DNA from: an uncultured Chlorobiota bacterium
Lineage (GTDB): Bacteria; Bacteroidota; Ignavibacteria; UBA10030; UBA6906
Direction of reading: 5' to 3'
DNA length: 64,000 nt
NCBI GenBank assembly: GCA_900696645.1
Contig: CAADGV010000009.1
Span: forward strand, 77,583 to 141,582
In this document: one piece after another, positions 10,939 to 22,100 of the stretch
Numbering within the stretch: position 1 is the stretch's first letter
Layout of the letters: each line of letters begins with the position of its first letter
Notes under the pieces: generated by a model
What the model saw: only the letters and a program-made list of their open reading frames with translations
The model's database searches: none
What the model was told of the DNA's origin: nothing
Position numbers and translations under genes: made by a program

Positions 10939-11808
10939 ATGTCGCGCATCGTGAAATGCGGTCTCATTCAATGTTCCATCGCAACCTCTAACGACCAGCC
11001 GCTTGATGTTATCAAGAAGACGATGATTGACAAGCATATTCCGTTCATTGAAGATGCTGGCAAGAAGGGTGTGCAGATTCTTTGCCTGCAGGAAATATTC
11101 TACGGTCCCTATTTCTGCGCCGAGCAGAAAACAAAATGGTACAACTCCACCGAACACATTCCCGACGGCCCGACCGTAAAGCTGATGCAGGAATTTGCAA
11201 AGAAGTATCAGATGGTGATGATCGTCCCGATTTATGAAGAAGAGATGGCGGGCGTGTACTACAATACCGCCGCTGTGATTGATGCTGACGGTTCGTATCT
11301 CGGCAAGTATCGCAAGACGCATATTCCGCAGGTAGACCCGGGATTCTGGGAGAAATTCTATTTCCGGCCCGGCAATCTTGGCTACCCCGTATTCAACACG
11401 CGCTACGCAAAAGTTGGTGTTTACATTTGTTATGACAGGCATTTCCCCGAAGGGGCACGATGTCTCGGATTGAACGGCGCGGAGATAGTCTTCAACCCGT
11501 CGGCGACGGTTGCTGGACTTTCGGAGTACTTATGGGAACTCGAGCAGCCTGCGCATGCAGTTGCGAATGGCTATTTCGTTGGCGCAATCAATCGTGTAGG
11601 CGTCGAAGCACCGTGGAACATCGGCGAGTTTTACGGCAAGAGTTATTTTTGCACTCCTCGCGGCAAGATTATTGCGCAGGCAAGCCGGGACAAGTCCGAG
11701 CTTGTTGTTGCCGATTTGGATCTGGATATGATAAAGGAAGTGCGCGAAACGTGGCAGTTCTTCCGCGACCGGCGGCCTGATGCGTACAAGCCTCTCGTGG
11801 AAGGATAA
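10939..11808 (+). CDS. beta-ureidopropionase (N-carbamoyl-beta-alanine amidohydrolase)
   Basis: A 289-residue nitrilase-superfamily amidase, usual length for the prokaryotic form. The Glu-Lys-Cys triad is visible in LQEIFYGPYF, KYRKTHIP and VYICYDRHFPE. It should hydrolyse N-carbamoyl-beta-alanine to beta-alanine, CO2 and ammonia, the third step of reductive uracil breakdown. N-carbamoylputrescine amidase is the main alternative, but the downstream dihydropyrimidine dehydrogenase and dihydropyrimidinase genes favour this role. GCAGGAG precedes the ATG. Confidence 0.87.
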   Translation: MSRIVKCGLIQCSIATSNDQPLDVIKKTMIDKHIPFIEDAGKKGVQILCLQEIFYGPYFCAEQKTKWYNSTEHIPDGPTVKLMQEFAKKYQMVMIVPIYEEEMAGVYYNTAAVIDADGSYLGKYRKTHIPQVDPGFWEKFYFRPGNLGYPVFNTRYAKVGVYICYDRHFPEGARCLGLNGAEIVFNPSATVAGLSEYLWELEQPAHAVANGYFVGAINRVGVEAPWNIGEFYGKSYFCTPRGKIIAQASRDKSELVVADLDLDMIKEVRETWQFFRDRRPDAYKPLVEG

Positions 11809-11823
11809 CGGAGCAACGGGTTG

Positions 11824-11836
11824 TCACAATTTGTGA
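11824..11836 (+). promoter_or_regulatory. palindromic operator-like site upstream of the first ORF6N gene
   Basis: TCACAA-T-TTGTGA is a perfect 6-bp-arm palindrome located 33 nt before the ORF6N ATG and 16 nt after the preceding stop. The same core occurs inside the ORF6N coding sequence at 12063-12087. It may be an autoregulatory binding site (inference). Confidence 0.6.
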
Positions 11837-11869
11837 TTACCCCACGAGCATATTCCTGACCAGACCATC

Positions 11870-12403
11870 ATGGCAAACATAGTTCCGACGGAAATCATTG
11901 AGCAACGCATCTTTCTCATTCGGGGTGAGAAAGTGATGGTTGACCGTGACCTTGCTGAATTGTATCAGGTACAAACCAAGGTTCTCAATCAGAGCGTGAA
12001 GCGAAACCTTGATCGTTTTCCCCCCAACTTCATGTTTCAATTGTCCGAGAAAGAGCGGGATGAACTGGTCACAAATTGTGACCGGTTCGAGCGGTTGAAG
12101 CATTCAACTTCGTTGCCGTTTGTGTTTACAGAACAGGGCGACAGCGTTTTGCGCAGCAAGCGCGCCATTCAGGTCAACATTCAGATCATGAATACATTTG
12201 TGCAGTTGCGCCGTATGCTGGCGGACAACAAAGCGCTTGCCCAGCGGCTCGACGAACTTGAGCGAAAGTATGACGCCCAGTTCAAAGTCGTTTTTGATGC
12301 GTTACGAAAGCTCATTTCGCCGCCGGATCCGCCGAAACGACGCATCGGCTTTGGTGTTCGCGAAGGGAAAGCCCCGTACATAGTCATCAAAAGGAAATCA
12401 TGA
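11870..12403 (+). CDS. ORF6N domain DNA-binding protein
   Basis: A 177-residue protein. Residues 7-95 match the ORF6N domain, known from phage antirepressors and common in Bacteroidota: EIIEQRIFLIRGEKVMVDRDLAELY, then RNLDRFPPNFMFQL and PFVFTEQG. A helical segment (about 130-148) and a PPDPPKRRIGF tail follow, shared with the paralog at 19960. The stop overlaps the aminotransferase start by ATGA, so it is built into the pyrimidine operon. A regulatory role is likely but untested. A 25-bp palindrome lies within its codons 65-73. Confidence 0.8.
   Translation: MANIVPTEIIEQRIFLIRGEKVMVDRDLAELYQVQTKVLNQSVKRNLDRFPPNFMFQLSEKERDELVTNCDRFERLKHSTSLPFVFTEQGDSVLRSKRAIQVNIQIMNTFVQLRRMLADNKALAQRLDELERKYDAQFKVVFDALRKLISPPDPPKRRIGFGVREGKAPYIVIKRKS
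12063..12087 (+). promoter_or_regulatory. palindrome inside the first ORF6N gene
   Basis: Arms AACTGGTCACAA and TTGTGACCGGTT flank a single central A; 11 of 12 positions pair. The core GGTCACAA-TTGTGACC carries the same TCACAA/TTGTGA half-sites as the upstream palindrome at 11824-11836. It encodes residues 65-73 of the ORF6N protein. Confidence 0.75.
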
Positions 12404-13743
12404 GCACGAATCTCACATCGCAAAAAATCACCGAACTCACCGCCCGCTACACGTACGGCACATGGCGCTTTCAGAAAGGGTGGAAGCCGCTGCATGTTGC
12501 AGACGCAGAAGGTTGCTACTTCACGGATGGCAGCGGAAAGAAGTATCTCGACTTCTCTTCACAACTCATGTGTTCGAACCTCGGACACAAGAATCCCGCC
12601 GTGATCAAAGCGATTGAAGAACAAGCGCGTCATCTTCCGTTTATTGCTCCGGGCTTTGCCACGGATGTGCGGGCCGAGTTGAGCAAGATGCTGCTGGAGG
12701 TGTTGCCGGAAGGACTGGAGAAGTTCTTCTTCACGACATCAGGAACAGAAGCGAACGAGGCGGCGTTCAAGATTGCACGGATGTACACGGGAAAGACCAA
12801 AATCATTGCGCGCTATCGAAGCTATCACGGTTCAACAATGGGATCGATTGCGGCAACGAGTGACCCGCGCCGTTGGGCAATGGAGCCCGCGGGCAAAATT
12901 CCCGGCGTCATTTTTGCGCCCGAAGTGAATTGCTACAAATGTCCAATGATGCACACCTATCCCGGTTGCGGCATTGCGTGCGTCGAGTACATTGAACACA
13001 TGATAGAGAATGAAAGCGATGTTGCCGCAGTACTCGTAGAGCCGGTAGTCGGAACCAACGGCGTTCTCATTCCCCCCAAAGAGTATCTCCCGCGTCTTCG
13101 CCAGATTTGCGACAAGTACAACGTGATGCTGATTGCCGATGAAGTAATGAGCGGATGGGGACGAACGGGCGAATGGTTTGCTGTGGATCATTGGGGAGTG
13201 AAGCCCGACATTCTTACAACGGCAAAAGGAATTACCGCCGCCTACGTTCCGCTCGGACTCTGTGCAACCACGAAGAAGATTGCCGACTACTTCGACGATC
13301 ATTACTTCTCTCATGGACATACATACGAAGCGCATCCGATCACGCTAGCGCCCGCAATTACCGCCATCAACGAGATGAAGCGGCTGAATACCAATCAGCG
13401 GGCAAGGGAACTTGGCATGTATCTCGGCGAGAAGTTGCATGCCTTGAAACCGAAGCACCCCTCAATCGGTGAGGTCCGCGGCATGGGGCTCTTCTGGGCA
13501 GTCGAACTCGTGAAGAATCAAGAGTCGAAAGAGCCGTTCAACACGAAATCAGACAAAGTCTCAGGCAAGCCGCTGGTCGTCGACAAGGTCGCCGCAGAAA
13601 TGATGAAGAACGGTGTGTTCGTTCAGGCGTGGATCAGTCATTTTGTTGTCGCGCCGCCGTTGATTGTGTCGAAGGATGAAATTGATGAAGGGGTGAAAGC
13701 TCTGGACGAGGCGTTGAGAATCGCGGATGCGGAGGTACAATGA
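12400..13743 (+). CDS. class III aminotransferase (probable beta-alanine aminotransferase)
   Basis: A 447-residue PLP enzyme of aminotransferase class III. The PLP lysine is in LTTAKGITAAYVPLG and the cofactor aspartate in LIADEVMSGWGRTG. In this operon it most likely removes the amino group of beta-alanine to give malonate semialdehyde; gene context rather than sequence assigns the substrate. Start and stop overlap both neighbours by four bases (ATGA at 12400 and at 13740), so its expression is coupled to both ORF6N and PreT. Confidence 0.85.
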   Translation: MSTNLTSQKITELTARYTYGTWRFQKGWKPLHVADAEGCYFTDGSGKKYLDFSSQLMCSNLGHKNPAVIKAIEEQARHLPFIAPGFATDVRAELSKMLLEVLPEGLEKFFFTTSGTEANEAAFKIARMYTGKTKIIARYRSYHGSTMGSIAATSDPRRWAMEPAGKIPGVIFAPEVNCYKCPMMHTYPGCGIACVEYIEHMIENESDVAAVLVEPVVGTNGVLIPPKEYLPRLRQICDKYNVMLIADEVMSGWGRTGEWFAVDHWGVKPDILTTAKGITAAYVPLGLCATTKKIADYFDDHYFSHGHTYEAHPITLAPAITAINEMKRLNTNQRARELGMYLGEKLHALKPKHPSIGEVRGMGLFWAVELVKNQESKEPFNTKSDKVSGKPLVVDKVAAEMMKNGVFVQAWISHFVVAPPLIVSKDEIDEGVKALDEALRIADAEVQ

Positions 13744-15086
13744 AAAACCTCGCTCCAAAACTGACGCACGAGCAATACGAAGCCAATTTTGCCGAACTTC
13801 ATCCGCCGTTCACGCCTAACTCCGCCGTTGCAGAAGCCAACAGATGCCTCTATTGCTATGACTCGCCCTGTATGAAAGCGTGTCCCACGCACATTGACAT
13901 CTCAACCTTTATTAAAAAGATTGCAACGGGAAATATCAAAGGTTCAGCGAAGACGATTCTCAAATCGAACTGGGTCGCGCTTACGTGCGCAAAGGCGTGT
14001 CCGGTGGATGTGCTGTGTGAAGGTGCATGCGTGTACAACGAGCGCGGCGAAGAGCCGATTCAGATAGGCAGGCTGCAACGCTATGCAATTGATTGGTACT
14101 TTGAGCACGGGATGCCGCCGTTGTTTGCACCGGCACCGAAGAACGGCAAAAGTGTCGGCGTGATTGGTGCGGGGGCTGCGGGACTTTCATGCGCAGCCGA
14201 GGCGGCGTTGCTCGGCTTCGATGTGACAATCTATGATGCCAACGAGAAACCGGGCGGGCTCAACACATGGGGCATCGCTCCCTACAAGATGATGCAGGAA
14301 GATGCCTTCAAGGAAGTGAGGCTCGTGCAGAGTTTCGGCGTGAAGATTCAATCGGGCGTGTGCGCGGGGAAGGATATTGCGCTTGGCGATCTCGAAAAGA
14401 AACATGACGCGATCTTTCTCGGTGTCGGCCTCGGTTCGGCATCACGGCTTAACATTCCAGGCGAGAATCTGCCGGGCGTTGTGGATGCGCTTGATTTCAT
14501 CGGGAAGGTTACGACGCGCAATTGGCATTCAGTTGATGTCGGCAAACGCGTTGCTGTTATCGGAGCGGGGAATACGGCAATTGATGCAGTGACGGAAGCG
14601 CGACGCCTCGGCGCCGAACAGGTGATGATCATTTACCGGCGAAGCCGTGAAGAAATGCCCGCGTACGACTTCGAGTACGAACTTGCCAAAAGCGAAGGCG
14701 TGCAGTTTCAGTTCCTTACCGCTCCGAGTCGCATTATCGGCAATGCGCATGTGGAGGCACTCGAGTGCATTCAGATGCAACTCGGCGAGCCTGATGAAGA
14801 AGGGCGGCGGCGACCGATTCCTGTACCGCATTCCGAATTCCGGATTCCTGTTGATATGATCATCAAGTCTGTCGGACAAAACATTGAACAGACATTTCTC
14901 GCTCAGATTCCGAATCTCAAAATTGAAGGAGGAAAAGTCTGGGTTAATCCCTACACGTTGCAAACATCCAACCCGAAGTACTTTGCCGGCGGCGATTGCA
15001 TCAACGGCGGAAAGGAAGTAGTGAACGCCGCGGCGGATGGGAAGAGGGCGGCGCATGGAATTCACGAGTTCTGTTTTGGCAAATAG
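13740..15086 (+). CDS. preT: NAD(P)-dependent dihydropyrimidine dehydrogenase subunit PreT
   Basis: A 448-residue flavoprotein resembling the glutamate synthase small subunit. The N-terminal third carries cysteine clusters CLYCYDSPCMKACP and CAKACPVDVLCEGAC for two Fe-S centres. An FAD-binding GVIGAGAAGLSCA lies near residue 140 and an NAD(P)-binding VAVIGAGNTAIDA near residue 270. It passes electrons from NAD(P)H to PreA for uracil/thymine reduction. It overlaps the aminotransferase stop by ATGA and is followed by preA after 10 nt. Confidence 0.9.
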   Translation: MKNLAPKLTHEQYEANFAELHPPFTPNSAVAEANRCLYCYDSPCMKACPTHIDISTFIKKIATGNIKGSAKTILKSNWVALTCAKACPVDVLCEGACVYNERGEEPIQIGRLQRYAIDWYFEHGMPPLFAPAPKNGKSVGVIGAGAAGLSCAAEAALLGFDVTIYDANEKPGGLNTWGIAPYKMMQEDAFKEVRLVQSFGVKIQSGVCAGKDIALGDLEKKHDAIFLGVGLGSASRLNIPGENLPGVVDALDFIGKVTTRNWHSVDVGKRVAVIGAGNTAIDAVTEARRLGAEQVMIIYRRSREEMPAYDFEYELAKSEGVQFQFLTAPSRIIGNAHVEALECIQMQLGEPDEEGRRRPIPVPHSEFRIPVDMIIKSVGQNIEQTFLAQIPNLKIEGGKVWVNPYTLQTSNPKYFAGGDCINGGKEVVNAAADGKRAAHGIHEFCFGK

Positions 15087-15096
15087 CGGAGATCCT

Positions 15097-16431
15097 ATGG
15101 CTGATTTATCGATCAATTGCGGTGGCATCAAGTCGCCGAATCCCTTCTGGCTCGCGTCGGCACCTCCGACGAACTCCGGTTACCAAGTCTGTAAAGCCTT
15201 CGAAGTAGGGTGGGGCGGTGCCGTCTGGAAAACCATCGGCGAGCCGGTGATGAATGTCTGCAACCGCTATGGCGCGGTTGACTACAACGGACAGAAAATT
15301 CTCGGCCTCAACAACATCGAGCTTATCAGCGACAGGCCGATTGAAACAAACCTGCGTGAGATTGCCGAAACGAAAAAGCTCTGGCCCGATCGTGCCGTGG
15401 TTGTTTCGTTGATGGTGGAATCGAAAAGGGAAACGTGGCACGATATCGTGAAGCGAACGATTGATACAGGGGCGGACGGCATCGAACTGAACTACGGTTG
15501 TCCGCACGGCATGAGCGAGCGGGGGATGGGCTCCGCCGTCGGACAAGTGCCGGAGTATTGCCAGATGATCACCGAATGGGTAATGGAAGCTTCGACAATT
15601 CCGGTGCTCGTCAAACTCACCCCCAACGTGACGGATGTACGTTTTCCCGGCAGAGCAGCGAAGCGAGCAGGCGCCAACGGCATCTCCCTCATTAATACTA
15701 TCAACACCATCATGGGCGTCGATCTTGATACATTCGAGTTGCAGCCCTCCGTTGGAGGAAAAGGAGGTCACGGCGGATATGCCGGACCCGCGGTCAAGCC
15801 GATCGCCCTCAACATGGTCTCGCAAATTGCACTCGATCCTGAAATCGACCTTCCTATCTCCGGCATCGGCGGTATTTCGACGTGGCGCGATGCACTTGAG
15901 TTTATCCTGCTGGGAGCTTCAAGCGTTCAGGTATGTACCGCGGCAATGCACTATGGCTTCCGCATCGTAGAAGACATGATTGAGGGGATGGAGAATTGGA
16001 TGGAGGAGAAAGGCTACACATCGCTTGACCAAGTTCGCGGCAAAGCATTGCAGCGCATTGACGATTTCGGCAATCTGAATCTATTGTTCAAAGCTGTTGC
16101 ACGGATTGACGAATCGAAGTGTATTCAATGCAATCTCTGTTATATTGCATGTGAAGACACTGCTCATCAGTGCATTGATCTTGTTGACAAGGTCGTAGGA
16201 TCGAACGGCTCGACGGAAATCAGGAAACAGCCGAAAGTCCGCGAAAGCGATTGCGTCGGATGCAGGCTCTGCTACATCGTGTGCCCGGTAGAGAAGTGCA
16301 TTTCCATGGTTCGTTTCGACGATGGCACACAATCGAAAACATGGAACGAGTTGGTGAAAGAACTGCCGCAACCAATGACCTGGGAGGATTTGCGGGCGTT
16401 TCAGAAAAAACACGGAATTGAAATTCATTAG
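15097..16431 (+). CDS. preA: dihydropyrimidine dehydrogenase catalytic subunit PreA
   Basis: A 444-residue dihydroorotate-dehydrogenase-like FMN barrel (about 1-330) followed by two ferredoxin-type [4Fe-4S] sites, CIQCNLCYIACEDTAHQC and CVGCRLCYIVCPVEKC. This is the domain order of PreA, which reduces uracil or thymine to the 5,6-dihydro form. NPFWLASAPPTNSGYQ at the N-terminus is typical. The ATG at 15097 is chosen because it lies just after preT and gives the standard N-terminus; an in-frame ATG at 15037 would overlap preT by 50 nt. Confidence 0.92.
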   Translation: MADLSINCGGIKSPNPFWLASAPPTNSGYQVCKAFEVGWGGAVWKTIGEPVMNVCNRYGAVDYNGQKILGLNNIELISDRPIETNLREIAETKKLWPDRAVVVSLMVESKRETWHDIVKRTIDTGADGIELNYGCPHGMSERGMGSAVGQVPEYCQMITEWVMEASTIPVLVKLTPNVTDVRFPGRAAKRAGANGISLINTINTIMGVDLDTFELQPSVGGKGGHGGYAGPAVKPIALNMVSQIALDPEIDLPISGIGGISTWRDALEFILLGASSVQVCTAAMHYGFRIVEDMIEGMENWMEEKGYTSLDQVRGKALQRIDDFGNLNLLFKAVARIDESKCIQCNLCYIACEDTAHQCIDLVDKVVGSNGSTEIRKQPKVRESDCVGCRLCYIVCPVEKCISMVRFDDGTQSKTWNELVKELPQPMTWEDLRAFQKKHGIEIH

Positions 16432-16489
16432 CCGCAGCCTCCGCGGCATCACATCCCCCAATCATTTTTTTGTTGAAAGGAGTTGTTCA

Positions 16490-16978
16490 ATGAGCGAGCG
16501 AGATCAATTCATACAGACGTGGGAACGCGAGTTCCAGACAACACTGAAAGTGTTGAAGGCGTATCCTGCTGACAAGCTCGATTTGAAGCCTGCGGAAAAG
16601 TCTAAGTCTGCGCGTGATTTGTTGTTTGTGTTCGCCGCGGAACAACATTTCTTCTCTCAAATTCTCGATGGCGCGCTCGACTTCACCTCGTCTGCTCCCA
16701 AGCCACCCGCCACTCTCGATGAGATTGTCAGTGCAACGGAGAAAGGCAATGCTGCTCTCGTGGCAAAAATCAAAGCAATGCCCGATGCAAGCTTCGACGA
16801 AAAGGTCGTATTCCCAGTGGCGCCAAAAACAATGCAGCCGGTTCGGAAGATGGATCTTTCCTGGATGATGTTGATGGATTCGATTCATCATCGCGGGCAG
16901 CTTTCTGTTTACATCAGACTCGCCGGAGGCAAAGTGCCGTCCATCTACGGCCCGACGGCGGATGAGCCGTGGATGTAG
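16490..16978 (+). CDS. DinB-like family protein
   Basis: A 162-residue four-helix protein of the DinB/YfiT-like superfamily. The early and late histidines expected for the metal site are seen at AAEQHFFSQ and DSIHHRGQLSVY. Such proteins are metal-dependent thiol S-transferases or have no known function. It lies between preA and the dihydropyrimidinase gene and probably shares their transcript, though it has no known part in pyrimidine breakdown. The ATG at 16490 follows AAAGGAG. Confidence 0.75.
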   Translation: MSERDQFIQTWEREFQTTLKVLKAYPADKLDLKPAEKSKSARDLLFVFAAEQHFFSQILDGALDFTSSAPKPPATLDEIVSATEKGNAALVAKIKAMPDASFDEKVVFPVAPKTMQPVRKMDLSWMMLMDSIHHRGQLSVYIRLAGGKVPSIYGPTADEPWM

Positions 16979-17007
16979 GATGTAAAGCTCACTACAAGGA
17001 GAAACAG

Positions 17008-18396
17008 ATGTCAATCCTCATCAAAAACGGCCGCATCATTACTGCTGAGCAAGACTATTCGGCCGATATTTATTGCGAAGATGAACATATCACGCGTATC
17101 GGCAAACAACTGGATGCTCCGCCGAACGCCACAGTCGTAGATGCTACGGGAAAGTATGTGTTTCCCGGCTTCATTGATCCGCACGTCCACATCTATCTCC
17201 CCTTCATGGGCACGTTCGCCAAAGACACACATGAATCGGCGAGCAAAGCGGCGCTCGTCGGTGGCACGACGACGTTCATCGAAATGATTTGCCAGTCGTG
17301 TTCAGAGCAGCCGCTCGCAGACGGATTCGAATTGTGGCGGGGCAAAGCTGAAGGCAACAGTGCATGTGATTTTACATTCCATCAGGCCGTGACTCGTCTC
17401 GACAAAGAGACGGAAGGCCAGCTGACGGAAATCGTCCGGAGCGGCATTACCAGTTTCAAAGTATTTCTTGCGTACAAAGGCGCGTTCGGCATTTCTGACG
17501 AGGAGTTGTATCATACGATGCGTTTGGCGAAGAAGCTTGGGGTGATCGTTACAGCGCATTGCGAGAATGCAGACGCGGTACTCGCGTTACAGCAGAAGCT
17601 TCTTGCCGAAGGAAAGACGGGCCCTGAATGGCATTATTGGAGTCGTCCCCCCCGCGTCGAAGCAGAAGGTGTGCATCACCTCCTGACGTTTGCAGAAATA
17701 CATGGCACGCACTGTTACCTCGTCCACACGAGCTGCGAGGAAGCGTTGCAGGAAGCATTGCTTGCGATGCAACGCGGTGTCAATGTGCGGGTCGAGACGC
17801 TGATTCAGTATTTGCTGCTGGATAAGAGTCACGCCGAACTTCCGAATTTTGAAGGGTCAAAGTATGTCATGTCGCCGCCGTTGCGCGACAAGCGGAATCA
17901 AGAGATTTTCTGGAACGCGTTGCGGCAAGGGTTCGTCTCGACGGTGGCTACCGATCACGCACCGTTTGATTTCAAGGGACAGAAAGAAATGGGACGCGGC
18001 GATTTTACGAAAATCCCCAACGGCATCCCGTCACTCGAAGATCGCATCAACCTGTTGTACACTCACGGCGTCTGCGAAGGCCGTCTCGATTTGAATACGT
18101 TCGTTGATTGCGCCAGCACGCAAGCGGCGAAGTTGTTCGGTTTGTATCCGCGCAAAGGTACGATCGCTATTGGCAGCGATGCCGATCTGGTCGTGTACGA
18201 TCCGACGTATCGCGGAACGATTTCAGCCCGTACACATCACCTCAATCTTGACTATAGCGCCTTTGAAGGTTGGGAGATCAAAGGAAGGCCGCATGTCGTG
18301 ACCGTGCGCGGCGAAGTTGCGGCACGTGACGGAAAGTTTGTCGGTACGGTCGGGCGCGGCAAGTTGCTCAAACGGGACACTCATGCCAGCAGATAG
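17008..18396 (+). CDS. dihydropyrimidinase
   Basis: A 462-residue cyclic amidohydrolase that opens dihydrouracil to N-carbamoyl-beta-alanine. Metal ligands are visible: HVH in FIDPHVHIYL, the carboxylated lysine in TSFKVFLAYKG, histidines in TAHCEN and YLVHTS, and the aspartate in VATDHAPF. Length matches D-hydantoinase/dihydropyrimidinase. It supplies the second catabolic step between PreTA and beta-ureidopropionase. CAAGGAG precedes the ATG at 17008, which decides it over an upstream in-frame ATG at 16969 inside the DinB gene. Confidence 0.9.
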   Translation: MSILIKNGRIITAEQDYSADIYCEDEHITRIGKQLDAPPNATVVDATGKYVFPGFIDPHVHIYLPFMGTFAKDTHESASKAALVGGTTTFIEMICQSCSEQPLADGFELWRGKAEGNSACDFTFHQAVTRLDKETEGQLTEIVRSGITSFKVFLAYKGAFGISDEELYHTMRLAKKLGVIVTAHCENADAVLALQQKLLAEGKTGPEWHYWSRPPRVEAEGVHHLLTFAEIHGTHCYLVHTSCEEALQEALLAMQRGVNVRVETLIQYLLLDKSHAELPNFEGSKYVMSPPLRDKRNQEIFWNALRQGFVSTVATDHAPFDFKGQKEMGRGDFTKIPNGIPSLEDRINLLYTHGVCEGRLDLNTFVDCASTQAAKLFGLYPRKGTIAIGSDADLVVYDPTYRGTISARTHHLNLDYSAFEGWEIKGRPHVVTVRGEVAARDGKFVGTVGRGKLLKRDTHASR

Positions 18397-18418
18397 AATG
18401 ACATTCTATTTTTGCCAG

Positions 18419-18480
18419 CCCACGACTTAAGTCGTGGGATCAAAAAGCACCTTGACGTTTGCAAGTCGTTTCAACGACTT
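18419..18480. repeat. paired REP-like palindromes
   Basis: CCCACGACTTAAGTCGTGGG at 18419-18438 is a perfect 20-bp palindrome. AAGTCGTT-TC-AACGACTT at 18463-18480 is a second hairpin with an 8-bp stem and a TC loop. Both share the ACGACTT/AAGTCGT unit, and the second resembles the hairpin at 5484-5501. Located between dihydropyrimidinase and the transporter, it may terminate or stabilise the upstream transcript. Confidence 0.65.
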
Positions 18481-18538
18481 CCTCTAAAGCGGCTACACCG
18501 AGTAAGTAAGATCATAATATCATCAACCGCTCCTGATT

Positions 18539-19963
18539 ATGACATCGCTTATGAATTCCGAACTGGTCGAAGTCGACCTCTCCTCCGTCAAACACAGTCC
18601 CCTCATCAACGACGACATCGCCCCGACAAAACTCTCCCAACGCACGTGGAGTACGTACAACATTGCTGCATTGTGGATCGGCATGAGCGTCTGCATTCCC
18701 ACCTACATGCTTGCCAGTGGATTGATTGCGAGCGGCATGAATTGGTGGCAAGCCTTGATGACCGTGACGCTCGGGAATGTGATCGTCCTGATTCCGATGA
18801 TCCTCAATGCACACGCCGGAACGAAATATGGCATTCCTTTTCCGGTGCTCGCCCGTGCGTCGTTCGGTACGCTCGGCTCGAATGTGCCGGCACTGCTGCG
18901 CGCTGTCGTTGCATGCGGCTGGTTCGGCATTCAAACGTGGATCGGCGGACAGGCATTTAACTCGATGATTATTCTTCTCTTGCCGCAGTGGGCAATCTTC
19001 GAGTGGGGGCCGGCAATCGGATTTCTCATTTTCTGGTCGATGAATGTGTACTTCATCGTGAAGGGAACGGAATCCATCAAATGGCTGGAGTCGTATGCCG
19101 CGCCGTTTCTGATTGCAATGGGATTGGGCTTGCTTGCATGGGCATATTTTGCTATTGGCAGCTTCGGGCCGATGTTCTCACAGCCGAGCCAGTTCGAGAC
19201 TGTCGGCGAGTTCTGGAAGGTGTTTGTTCCATCGCTGACCGGAATGGTGGGATTCTGGGCGACATTGTCTCTGAACATTCCCGACTTTACGCGCTACGCT
19301 CGAAGTCAGCGTGATCAGATGATAGGACAGGCGATCGGACTTCCGCCAACGATGGCGTTATTCTCATTTATTGGAGTTGCTGTAACATCTGCAACGGTTG
19401 TGATTTTCGGAGAGGCGATTTGGGATCCGGTTGTTCTTCTTTCGAAGTTCGAGAGTCCCGTTGTTATTTTGCTCGCACTCTTCTCACTTTCTGTCGCCAC
19501 ACTCACAACGAACATTGCAGCGAACGTCGTCTCGCCGGCAAACGACTTTGCCAATCTTTTCCCGAAAAAAATCAGCTTCAAAACCGGCGGCTTGATTACA
19601 GCCGTTCTCGGCATTGTGATGATGCCATGGAAATTGCTTGCCGACTACGGCACGTACATTTTCGGGTGGCTTGTCGGCTATTCGAGTTTCCTCGGTCCGA
19701 TTGCGGGCGTGTTGATTGCAGATTACTTTATTGTGCGAAAGCAGAGACTCAACGTCGCTGATTTGTATGTGCGGGGAGGCGAATACGAGTTTACCGGCGG
19801 GTTCAACATGAAAGCAGTGTACGCGCTTCTTGCCGGCGTTGTTCTTGCCCTCATCGGCTTGGTTGTGCCGGAGGTGCGCTTCTTGTATGATTACGCGTGG
19901 TTTGTCGGGTTTGCTGTTGCGTTTGGTATGTACGTGCTTTTGATGAAGCGCCGAACGCCTTAG
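18539..19963 (+). CDS. NCS1-family nucleobase permease
   Basis: A 474-residue inner-membrane transporter with about 12 predicted membrane segments. The N-terminal half holds WIGMSVCIPTYMLASGLI and the helix ending VACGWFGIQTWIGG, and later SLNIPDFTRYARSQRDQ, all typical of cytosine/uracil/allantoin permeases of the NCS1 family. With the catabolic enzymes upstream, uracil or thymine uptake is likely. The ribosome-binding site is weak; an alternative ATG lies four codons further in. Its stop overlaps by four bases the stop of the convergent ORF6N gene. Confidence 0.87.
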   Translation: MTSLMNSELVEVDLSSVKHSPLINDDIAPTKLSQRTWSTYNIAALWIGMSVCIPTYMLASGLIASGMNWWQALMTVTLGNVIVLIPMILNAHAGTKYGIPFPVLARASFGTLGSNVPALLRAVVACGWFGIQTWIGGQAFNSMIILLLPQWAIFEWGPAIGFLIFWSMNVYFIVKGTESIKWLESYAAPFLIAMGLGLLAWAYFAIGSFGPMFSQPSQFETVGEFWKVFVPSLTGMVGFWATLSLNIPDFTRYARSQRDQMIGQAIGLPPTMALFSFIGVAVTSATVVIFGEAIWDPVVLLSKFESPVVILLALFSLSVATLTTNIAANVVSPANDFANLFPKKISFKTGGLITAVLGIVMMPWKLLADYGTYIFGWLVGYSSFLGPIAGVLIADYFIVRKQRLNVADLYVRGGEYEFTGGFNMKAVYALLAGVVLALIGLVVPEVRFLYDYAWFVGFAVAFGMYVLLMKRRTP

Positions 19964-20520
19964 CGATCATTTGCTTCCGGTGGCCGGAACCCGATGGGTC
20001 GCCGCTTCGGCGGCTCGGGAGGTTCCATCAGTTGGCGTATTGCCTGAATGATTGAGGTGATGGTTTCGTCGTGCGTTGCAATTTTGCGTTCAAGCTCTTC
20101 CAACTTATGGGCAATTTGTGTGTGAGAGGAGAGAACCTCGCGTAATTGCACAAAGGCTCGCACAATAAGGATGCTCACCTCTGTTGCTATCGGGCTGTTG
20201 AGGACGCTGGCAAGTTGCAGAGCCCCATGTTCAGTAAGGACGTATGGCGGTCTTCGCAAGCCCATTTTTGCCGACGGTTTGGTGGTCGCAAAATGCGACC
20301 TCCAATTCTCCAACTCCGCTTTGTTCAGGCGGAACATAAAATCCCCCGGAAACCGCTCCTTATTGCGCTTCACTTGTTCGTTAAGGCGTTTCGTACTCAC
20401 GCCATAAAGACGGGCAAGGTCCGAGTCGAACATTACGCGCTTCCCGCGAATCAGCATAATTGAACTTTGGACACGCTCAAGCGGGACAATGGAAGATGAT
20501 TTCAATTGCGAAGTCTTCAT
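19960..20520 (-). CDS. ORF6N domain DNA-binding protein (second copy)
   Basis: A 186-residue paralog of the protein at 11870. The ORF6N domain spans about residues 14-105: IMLIRGKRVMFDSDLARLYGVS, then RFPGDFMFRL and PPYVLTEHGALQLASVL. A helical stretch and a PPEPPKRRPIGF tail follow, as in the first copy. Upstream on its strand is mmsA. A palindrome 46-64 nt before the ATG recurs inside its codons 72-80, the position equivalent to the internal palindrome of the first copy. Confidence 0.8.
   Translation of the reverse strand: MKTSQLKSSSIVPLERVQSSIMLIRGKRVMFDSDLARLYGVSTKRLNEQVKRNKERFPGDFMFRLNKAELENWRSHFATTKPSAKMGLRRPPYVLTEHGALQLASVLNSPIATEVSILIVRAFVQLREVLSSHTQIAHKLEELERKIATHDETITSIIQAIRQLMEPPEPPKRRPIGFRPPEANDR
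20279..20305 (-). promoter_or_regulatory. palindrome inside the second ORF6N gene
   Basis: Core GGTCGCA-AAA-TGCGACC at 20284-20300, extended by further pairing outward to 20279 and 20305 with one mismatch. On the coding strand it encodes residues NWRSHFATT (72-80). It shares TGGAGGTCGCA-NN-TTGCGACC with the palindrome upstream of the same gene. Confidence 0.75.
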
Positions 20521-20565
20521 TCAGGATCGTGTTCTTGATTTTCCGTGTTTCACCGTCAACGTAGT

Positions 20566-20584
20566 AGGTCGCAACTTGCGACCT
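20566..20584 (-). promoter_or_regulatory. palindromic operator-like site upstream of the second ORF6N gene
   Basis: AGGTCGCAA-C-TTGCGACCT is a perfect palindrome with 9-bp arms in the 71-nt gap between the mmsA stop and the ORF6N start. It nearly repeats the palindrome inside the gene at 20279-20305. Confidence 0.7.
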
Positions 20585-20591
20585 CCATTTT

Positions 20592-22100
20592 TCAGCTCAT
20601 CCAATTCACCTTCGATTCCGGATTCCACTTTATTGTCGTCTTTTTCGGTTTGGTGAGGAACTCAATGGAGCTTTTTCCAGTAATATCTCCCGCGCCAAAC
20701 TTTGAGTCATTCCATCCTCCAAACGAAAACGGCTCACGCGGAACAGGCACGCCGATATTCACGCCGATCATTCCCGCGCTTGCATGCTCGATCACGTGGC
20801 GCGCAGCGCCGCCGCTTTGCGTAAAGACGCTTGCCGCGTTGCCGTACGGATTGGCATTTTCGATCTTCAACGCATCATCGACTGTATCTGCGCGCATGAT
20901 GGCGAGGACGGGGCCGAACACTTCTTCCCGCGCAATACGCATTTCCGGTTTGACAAAATCGATGACCGTCGGTCCGACGTAAAAGCCCTCTTCCTTTCCC
21001 TCAACAACACAATTGCGCCCGTCGACAAGCACCTTTGCTCCCTGTTTCTCCGCCTCGGTGATGTATCCCTCGATACGTTCCTTTGCCTTCTTCGAAATGA
21101 CGGCGCCGAGATTCTTACCGGGTATGATCTTGCGGGACTCGTCACATAACTTTTTGATGATATGATCGACGTTGCCGACCGCGACCATTGCCGACGCGGC
21201 CATGCAGCGTTGTCCCGCGCAGCCGCTCATGCTTGCGGCAACGTTCGATGCCGTCATGTCCTCGTGTGCATCGGGGAGAACGATAAGATGGTTCTTCGCT
21301 CCGCCGAGACACAACGCCCGTTTGAGATTTGCTGTTGAGCGTTGGTAGACAAGCTTTGCAACTTTGGTCGAGCCGACGAACGTCACAGCATCAATGCCGG
21401 GATGATCGCAAATCGCCTCGACAGCTTCCTGTCCGCCGTGAACGATGTTGAAAACGCCGTCAGGAAGCCCCGCCTCCTTCAATAATTCCGCGATGCGAAT
21501 GGAACTCAACGGCACAAGTTCCGACGGCTTCAGAATCATCGTGTTGCCGAGAACAAGCGCGTTCGGTATTGTCCAGTTCGGCACCATGTTCGGGAAGTTG
21601 AACGGCGTAATTGAGGCGACAACTCCGACAGGGTAACGGTCGATTCTGCATTCGACGCCCTTGCTTACTTCAAGAACTTCGCCGCTCAGGAGTTGCGGCA
21701 TCGAGCAGGCGAACTCGGTGACTTCAATTGCTTTCTCCACTTCGGCAATCGATTCGCCGATCGTCTTGCCGTTTTCTTCATGCACCAGCGCCGCAAGTTC
21801 CTGCATGTGTTTTTCCATTAATGCTTTATATCGGAAGAAGACCTGCACGCGTTCCTTAACGGGTGTGTTCGACCACACCGGAAACGTCTTCCGTGCCGAG
21901 GCAACCGCATCGTCAACATCTTGCGGTACGGAAAGTGGAACCTTTGCAATTGTCTGTCCCACTGAAGGGTTCATGACAGGTTGGAGATTCGTGCTGCGGG
22001 AATCAATCCATCTTCCGTTCACGTAGTTCATCAGTACGCGAATGCCGTTGGAGGGTTTTGTTGCGGATACAATTGAAGGTACTTCAGCCACGAGGGACAT
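20592..22100 (-). CDS. mmsA: CoA-acylating methylmalonate/malonate semialdehyde dehydrogenase
   Basis: A 502-residue aldehyde dehydrogenase of the MmsA/IolA type. The catalytic cysteine sits in GCAGQRCMAAS, the form specific to these CoA-dependent enzymes, and the NAD-binding GSTKVAKLVY is present. Here it probably converts malonate semialdehyde from beta-alanine deamination to acetyl-CoA and CO2, closing the pyrimidine pathway. It is transcribed towards the other pathway genes from the minus strand, with GGAGGCAG before the ATG. Confidence 0.9.
   Translation of the reverse strand: MSLVAEVPSIVSATKPSNGIRVLMNYVNGRWIDSRSTNLQPVMNPSVGQTIAKVPLSVPQDVDDAVASARKTFPVWSNTPVKERVQVFFRYKALMEKHMQELAALVHEENGKTIGESIAEVEKAIEVTEFACSMPQLLSGEVLEVSKGVECRIDRYPVGVVASITPFNFPNMVPNWTIPNALVLGNTMILKPSELVPLSSIRIAELLKEAGLPDGVFNIVHGGQEAVEAICDHPGIDAVTFVGSTKVAKLVYQRSTANLKRALCLGGAKNHLIVLPDAHEDMTASNVAASMSGCAGQRCMAASAMVAVGNVDHIIKKLCDESRKIIPGKNLGAVISKKAKERIEGYITEAEKQGAKVLVDGRNCVVEGKEEGFYVGPTVIDFVKPEMRIAREEVFGPVLAIMRADTVDDALKIENANPYGNAASVFTQSGGAARHVIEHASAGMIGVNIGVPVPREPFSFGGWNDSKFGAGDITGKSSIEFLTKPKKTTIKWNPESKVNWMS

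Follow-up and report, generated by a model that had tools for sequence, protein, structure and literature searches.

The window, a stretch of 64,000 nucleotides from an uncultured Chlorobiota bacterium, contains two genes of the ORF6N family (Table 1). ORF6N is the only Pfam domain in both proteins; the C-terminal ANT/KilAC domain that marks phage antirepressors of the Ant type is absent from them. Gene 1 follows a nitrilase-family gene and ends in an overlap (ATGA) of its stop codon with the start of an aminotransferase gene; gene 2 has an mmsA-type aldehyde dehydrogenase gene on one side and, on the other, a convergent NCS1-type permease gene. The two differently typed ORF6N genes sit within one cluster (10939-22100) that resembles pyrimidine/beta-alanine catabolism and comprises, besides the genes just named, two oxidoreductase subunits and a dihydropyrimidinase-like gene. 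In two other lineages (L364, L365), differently typed ORF6N genes occupy the position of gene 1 between the nitrilase-family and aminotransferase genes, and in some relatives (L351, L354) this junction holds a different short orphan gene.

Table 1. ORF6N genes, predicted DNA-reading segments and palindromes in the window
Feature	Positions	Strand	Remarks
ORF6N gene 1, 177 aa	11870-12403	+	Pfam PF10543, 96.0 bits (cut-off 27.8)
ORF6N gene 2, 186 aa	19960-20520	-	Pfam PF10543, 107.6 bits (cut-off 27.8)
Gene 1 recognition-helix codons (TKVLNQSVKR)	11975-12004	+	Gln class, predicts TCACA/TGTGA; placed by alignment; the homologous gene 2 residues are helical in the model
Gene 2 recognition-helix codons (TKRLNEQVKR), residues 43-52	20365-20394	-	Glu class, predicts TCGCA/TGCGA
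Gene 1 internal palindrome AACTGGTCACAAATTGTGACCGGTT	12063-12087		Core GGTCACAAATTGTGACC at 12067-12083; one pair imperfect; in the second reading frame (VTNCD)
Gene 2 internal palindrome	20280-20304		Core GGTCGCAAAATGCGACC at 20284-20300; encodes RSHFAT
Gene 1 upstream palindrome TCACAATTTGTGA	11824-11836		Helix-matched; imperfect extension 11818-11842
Gene 2 upstream palindrome GGTCGCAACTTGCGACC	20567-20583		Helix-matched; centre 55 nt 5' of ATG
Gene 2 wing-loop codons (KMGLRR), residues 85-90	20251-20268	-	Class paired with outer arm TGGA

A preliminary description of this DNA had located one palindrome inside and one upstream of each gene, and had pointed out that the genes differ by the same symmetric change, TCACA/TGTGA versus TCGCA/TGCGA, in both copies; all four palindromes and the change itself were confirmed. 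It had also placed the internal sites at equivalent protein positions. They do lie in the same linker but are read in different frames, GTC-ACA-AAT-TGT-GAC (VTNCD) in gene 1 and TCG-CAT-TTT-GCG-ACC (SHFAT) in gene 2, which strengthens the case, since protein homology is unable to yield both internal sites when one linker reads VTNCD and the other RSHFAT. That the coordination exceeds chance, as had been argued, is borne out by the pattern GGTCRCANNNTGYGACC, which has three exact matches in all 46 contigs (4.2 Mb) of the genome, namely the internal site of gene 1 and the internal and upstream sites of gene 2, while the reversed-pattern control has none in the same 4.2 Mb. A chance origin is ruled out by this whole-genome count and by the synonymous-codon null described below. 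The third ORF6N gene of this genome (L001) carries a site of its own class, GGTGACAAATTGGCACC.

The internal palindrome across the ORF6N family

Two gene sets were assembled, with duplicates removed from each. The Pfam model supplied the first, 135 ORF6N genes from the class and phylum to which the window belongs. The second, assembled independently and used as a test set, comprised 120 genes from genome and viral collections, found with scan motifs that flank but exclude the palindrome; in viral contigs ORF6N was found by an alignment-based scan, single-sequence scans having given nothing. The best palindrome per gene was sought in the linker that joins the RFPxxFMF motif to the FTE motif, and nearly every gene has one. 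The mean score of the best palindrome was 11.1 in the first set and 10.6 in the second, as against 4.3 after synonymous recoding in either, and it beat synonymous recoding at the 0.05 level in 134 of 135 and 112 of 120 genes, respectively. In the first set, complementarity was 87-100% at positions 2-12 from the centre and fell to background by position 16; in both sets many palindromes were perfect across 25-27 bp. The outer arms change in a compensatory way, and next to the centre the bases are frequently unpaired. Across 252 genes from many phyla and viral contigs, the internal palindrome matched the gene's own recognition helix in both arms in 217 and in at least one arm in 244. Judged from these comparisons of sequence, ORF6N genes appear to contain the binding site of their own product.

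Eight linkers seem to hold two palindrome units; in some of these the second unit is of the helix's class and the other of a different class, as if sites turned over by insertion.

Correspondence between protein residues and bases

Mutual information (residues numbered as in gene 2) links positions 4 and 5 from the centre to residue 48 and then to residue 45, position 7 to residue 44, and positions 10-13 to residues 85-89, whose codons come after the palindrome and form no part of it. The linker residues that the palindrome does encode also have high mutual information, trivially so. The suggestion in the preliminary description that these encoded residues help to read the site was thus not upheld; the residues that track the site are those of helix 43-52 and of the wing after the palindrome.

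The inner dinucleotide goes with residue 48, Glu being paired with TCGCA, Gln with TCACA, Lys with TTCCA, Arg with TGCCA and Leu with TTTCA. In the first set CG accompanied Glu48 in 43/43 genes, TC Lys48 in 10/10, CA Gln48 in 50/53 and TT Leu48 in 4/5, two TG cases among the Gln48 genes representing a Gln-Gln subclass. The second set gave 34/34 for Glu, 4/4 for Lys, 54/58 for Gln and, for GC in the right arm of Arg genes, 15/17. Lys44 went together with G:C at position 7 in 140 of 141 genes of both sets, and in the second set the outer arms followed the wing class (MGLR with TGGA, 30/31; GGxR with TTGA, 42/47). The earlier proposal that each protein recognises its own palindrome is well supported by the way in which the arms follow the recognition-helix and wing residues across the 252 genes, so that such recognition is probable. 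A Ser-Gln-x-Ala-Thr motif, which the preliminary description gave as common at this place, does occur in the Glu-48 class and is limited to it.

One and the same code operates in two reading frames (69/69 and 8/8 genes for Glu, 96/102 and 13/13 for Gln). On a tree built without the trait columns, on which residue 48 changed about 79 times, the inner bases changed as expected in 9 of 9 supported independent Glu/Gln pairs (p 0.004) and in about 7 of 7 independent Arg/Gln pairs. That the palindromes stem from protein-level coevolution or shared ancestry alone is therefore scarcely credible: linker residues (RSQxAT and others) are indeed partly conserved, but synonymous recoding destroys the palindromes, the DNA code is unchanged where a second reading frame encodes other amino acids, the switches on the tree are repeated, and KilA-N genes are negative in a like search (see below). 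Constraint on the protein alone, which had earlier been held insufficient, is ruled out by the occurrence of one DNA code in two frames. An RNA or DNA hairpin, conserved for its structure and not as a protein site, would agree with the compensatory changes of the outer arms and with the pair beside the centre being often unpaired. We nevertheless regard it as very improbable, since protein residues encoded elsewhere predict base identity position by position, and since upstream copies match the helix. Moreover, mismatches in the stem are mainly A-C, A-G and A-A with few G-T, at odds with the G-U intermediates by which an RNA stem would be recognised, and these mismatch types rule out an RNA stem.

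Genes with Arg48 keep the right arm TGGCACC and usually have one imperfect arm. Their left arm is perfect with the linker RCQxGT and is one or two bases off when Cys is replaced by Tyr, Ser or Phe, which indicates that protein and DNA demands compete. In three plasmid genes whose helix ends in KNN, not KRN, the core is AAAnTTT, not CAAnTTG, as expected if residue 52, here Asn, reads the core. Two cryptic plasmids of Segatella copri (L396, NZ_CP152486.1, 4140 bp; L397, NZ_CP152354.1, 2955 bp) are annotated with only a Rep protein and an ORF6N gene, and each of these ORF6N genes has an internal palindrome of the new core type AAAnTTT. The Butyrivibrio plasmid pCY186 (L401) carries an Arg-class ORF6N gene with a perfect site near the start codon, ATCGAGATGCCAATTTGGCATCTCGAT, and a degenerate copy within the gene.

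Upstream copies and confinement of the sites to ORF6N loci

Palindromes were present within 250 nt upstream of 45 of the 252 genes (60 sites, versus 0.35 expected by shuffling). The upstream palindrome fully matched the gene's own helix in 25 genes, compared with 14.6 under permuted labels, and none of 5000 permutations reached 25. Of those lying within 65 nt, 19 of 33 matched fully (p 0.0002). The notion that coding and promoter sites evolve together is accordingly retained in a weaker form, and a general promoter-site model is rejected, given that upstream sites accompany so few of the genes. A helix-matched upstream site is present in both genes that have an intact domain but lack a detectable internal site (L139, L175) and also in two genes whose internal sites are broken (L180, L237); the overall proportions are 4/12 versus 21/206 (p 0.036). 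Internal and upstream sites thus seem interchangeable.

Upstream palindromes may also be relics of decayed ORF6N copies. That of gene 1 is possibly the relic of an older copy, and next to the upstream site of gene 2 the sequence is, judged by eye, similar to ORF6N coding sequence. At the gene 1 locus of one genome of the same genus, decay has left no more than the palindrome and the last codons; at L348, directly after the nitrilase stop codon, the ORF6N relic consists of the palindrome GAACTGGTCACAATTTGTGATCTGTTC and the final codons, a hint either that the site persists longer than its gene or that it survived by chance. Such relics, together with the placement of ORF6N as single genes in variable places and the existence of tandem ORF6N genes and duplicated linkers, are what might be expected if the palindrome were a recombination or insertion site through which the gene spreads, binding being in the service of mobility. 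We consider this rather unlikely, as a Pfam search found no recombinase or nuclease domain in either of the two proteins of the window, the genome has no dispersed copies of the sites, and most genes have a single internal site.

A count over 149 genomes of the class gave 52 occurrences of the exact inner pattern and one of the reversed control. When compared with the listed ORF6N places, 44 of the 52 occurrences lay inside or just upstream of an ORF6N gene; of the remaining eight, two were at an unlisted ORF6N gene or pseudogene, four were solitary full-length sites, one was chance-like and one lay at a contig end. The sites are nearly exclusive to ORF6N loci, follow a residue-to-base code and are maintained by a DNA-level constraint inside the coding sequence, and their near exclusivity leaves no obvious regulon beyond the gene itself. 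At L371 (1480-1530), a solitary palindrome, AGGTGGTCGCATTTTGCGACCACCT, is followed by a T run and resembles an intrinsic terminator.

A self-recognition model and its relatives

In the AlphaFold model of the gene 2 protein (mean pLDDT 86.6), a helix at 32-39 is followed after a short turn by the helix at 43-52, and a long helix spans 110-148; the region of about 71-90, which holds the palindrome-encoded linker and a possible wing, is of lower confidence. The nearest folds by VIA-align, with modest scores, were Ski-like (Z 7.1), Dachshund (6.1) and RacA-DNA 5i44, a MerR-type winged helix (5.3). Foldseek gave no match below E 0.001, and a sequence search of the PDB found no relative. The open-access papers that our search brought up describe no DNA site or specificity code for ORF6N, Bro-N or RhuM, and a search of the same literature for intragenic operators yielded nothing relevant.

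The model that we favour, and consider likely, is that an operator within the coding sequence of each ORF6N gene is bound by the gene's own product, which thereby regulates the gene. From the covariation of helix, wing and arms we strongly infer physical binding of the protein to its own site, and we infer, with less force, a dimer and autorepression. The proteins would be winged-helix DNA-binding dimers whose main high-affinity site would be the 25-27 bp palindrome about 200 bp downstream of the start codon of their own gene. In each half-site, helix residues 44, 45 and 48 would be responsible for reading positions 4, 5 and 7 (counted from the centre), the near-invariant Arg52 probably for the CA core, and residues 85-89 of the wing loop for positions 9-12. 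The bound protein would most likely limit its own transcription, either as a roadblock or by looping to the upstream copy where one is present. With upstream copies absent in most genes, classical promoter autorepression is not the rule; an operator carried within the gene would let autorepression work whichever promoter the gene comes to lie behind, as befits a single gene that is mobile. A roadblock inside the gene would bear on the downstream genes of a host operon as well, and gene 1 is located in one.

Individual autorepressors with operators inside their own gene are known, and ORF6N resembles these in that a DNA-binding protein has its site in or beside the gene encoding it and probably governs the expression of that gene. 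The ORF6N site differs from them, however, in being nearly universal in the family, in lying within the coding sequence of the DNA-binding domain, and in changing in register with the recognition residues across phyla. Palindromes tied to a protein family or lying within genes are also familiar from REP/RAYT and Rickettsia palindromic elements, but those of ORF6N are not dispersed, the three exact copies in 4.2 Mb all being at ORF6N genes.

Tentatively, the sites could serve exclusion or incompatibility instead of, or beyond, homeostasis: a resident ORF6N protein would silence or block an incoming gene, plasmid or phage with the same embedded site, and specificities would diversify like immunity groups. 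Among the 22 genomes with at least two sampled genes, none of 108 within-genome pairs had an identical half-site, versus 4.1 expected (P 0.011), and 7 pairs shared a half-site with up to one mismatch, versus 13.3 expected (P 0.028); this test is small, and identical pairs could have been depleted by assembly collapse of near-identical repeats and by the exclusion of identical proteins. Where 5-7 ORF6N genes were sampled from one genome, they had 5-7 different sites. The many changes of residue 48 on the tree, and the presence of ORF6N in viral contigs and on minimal plasmids that carry Rep and ORF6N (2.9 and 4.1 kb), would also be in keeping with exclusion. The statistics are modest, however, and insulation of paralogous autoregulators would give an identical pattern. 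Temperate-phage repressors and plasmids likewise form immunity and incompatibility groups in which operator specificities are diversified and different types coexist, as is the case for ORF6N; in contrast to them, one ORF6N gene holds both protein and operator, and exclusion is but a candidate role.

Related families were searched for the best palindrome anywhere in the gene, compared with codon shuffling. Only 1 of 22 KilA-N (PF04383) genes had an internal palindrome, which argues against an artefact of the method. Unlike KilA-N, RhuM (PF13310) was positive in 22 of 30 genes, with sites following the helix, and Bro-N (PF02498) in a subset of genes; a Bro-N gene of the window's own genome (L269) has a palindrome that is not significant alone. 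PF09669 (pRha) yielded weak matches only, several coinciding with ORF6N genes. It is conceivable, though we would not yet favour it, that ORF6N, RhuM and Bro-N form a new class of self-recognising single-gene elements, with the address in the gene and a specificity-switching code that keeps copies orthogonal; beyond autorepression, they would then serve mobile genes, small plasmids and phages as a device of genetic identity or incompatibility.

The DNA site becomes predictable from sequence alone for nearly every member of a large family that is widely annotated but functionally unexplained, and the code is testable: Glu48 with CG, Gln48 with CA, Lys48 with TC, Arg48 with GC, Leu48 with TT, Lys44 with GG, and wing classes for the outer arms. 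A coding sequence that has to remain the target of its own product is under a constraint at the DNA level, and the coevolution signals thereby created, such as that of residue 48 with linker residues 75 and 78, need not be contacts. For synthetic biology, these genes are potentially orthogonal, self-contained regulators, and orphan phage-type DNA-binding genes in chromosomes and mini-plasmids may be seen afresh.

In RhuM, the correspondence of helix and site, read by eye in few genes, is SEH or NEH with CGG, NYH with CGAA, SLH with CAAG and SMH with TAAG. The RhuM loci (L287-L316) include perfect palindromes of up to 27 bp, and their sites appear to follow the residue before the helix His as well as residues some positions ahead of it (SKKT with TCC, SKAT or SKST with TTC).
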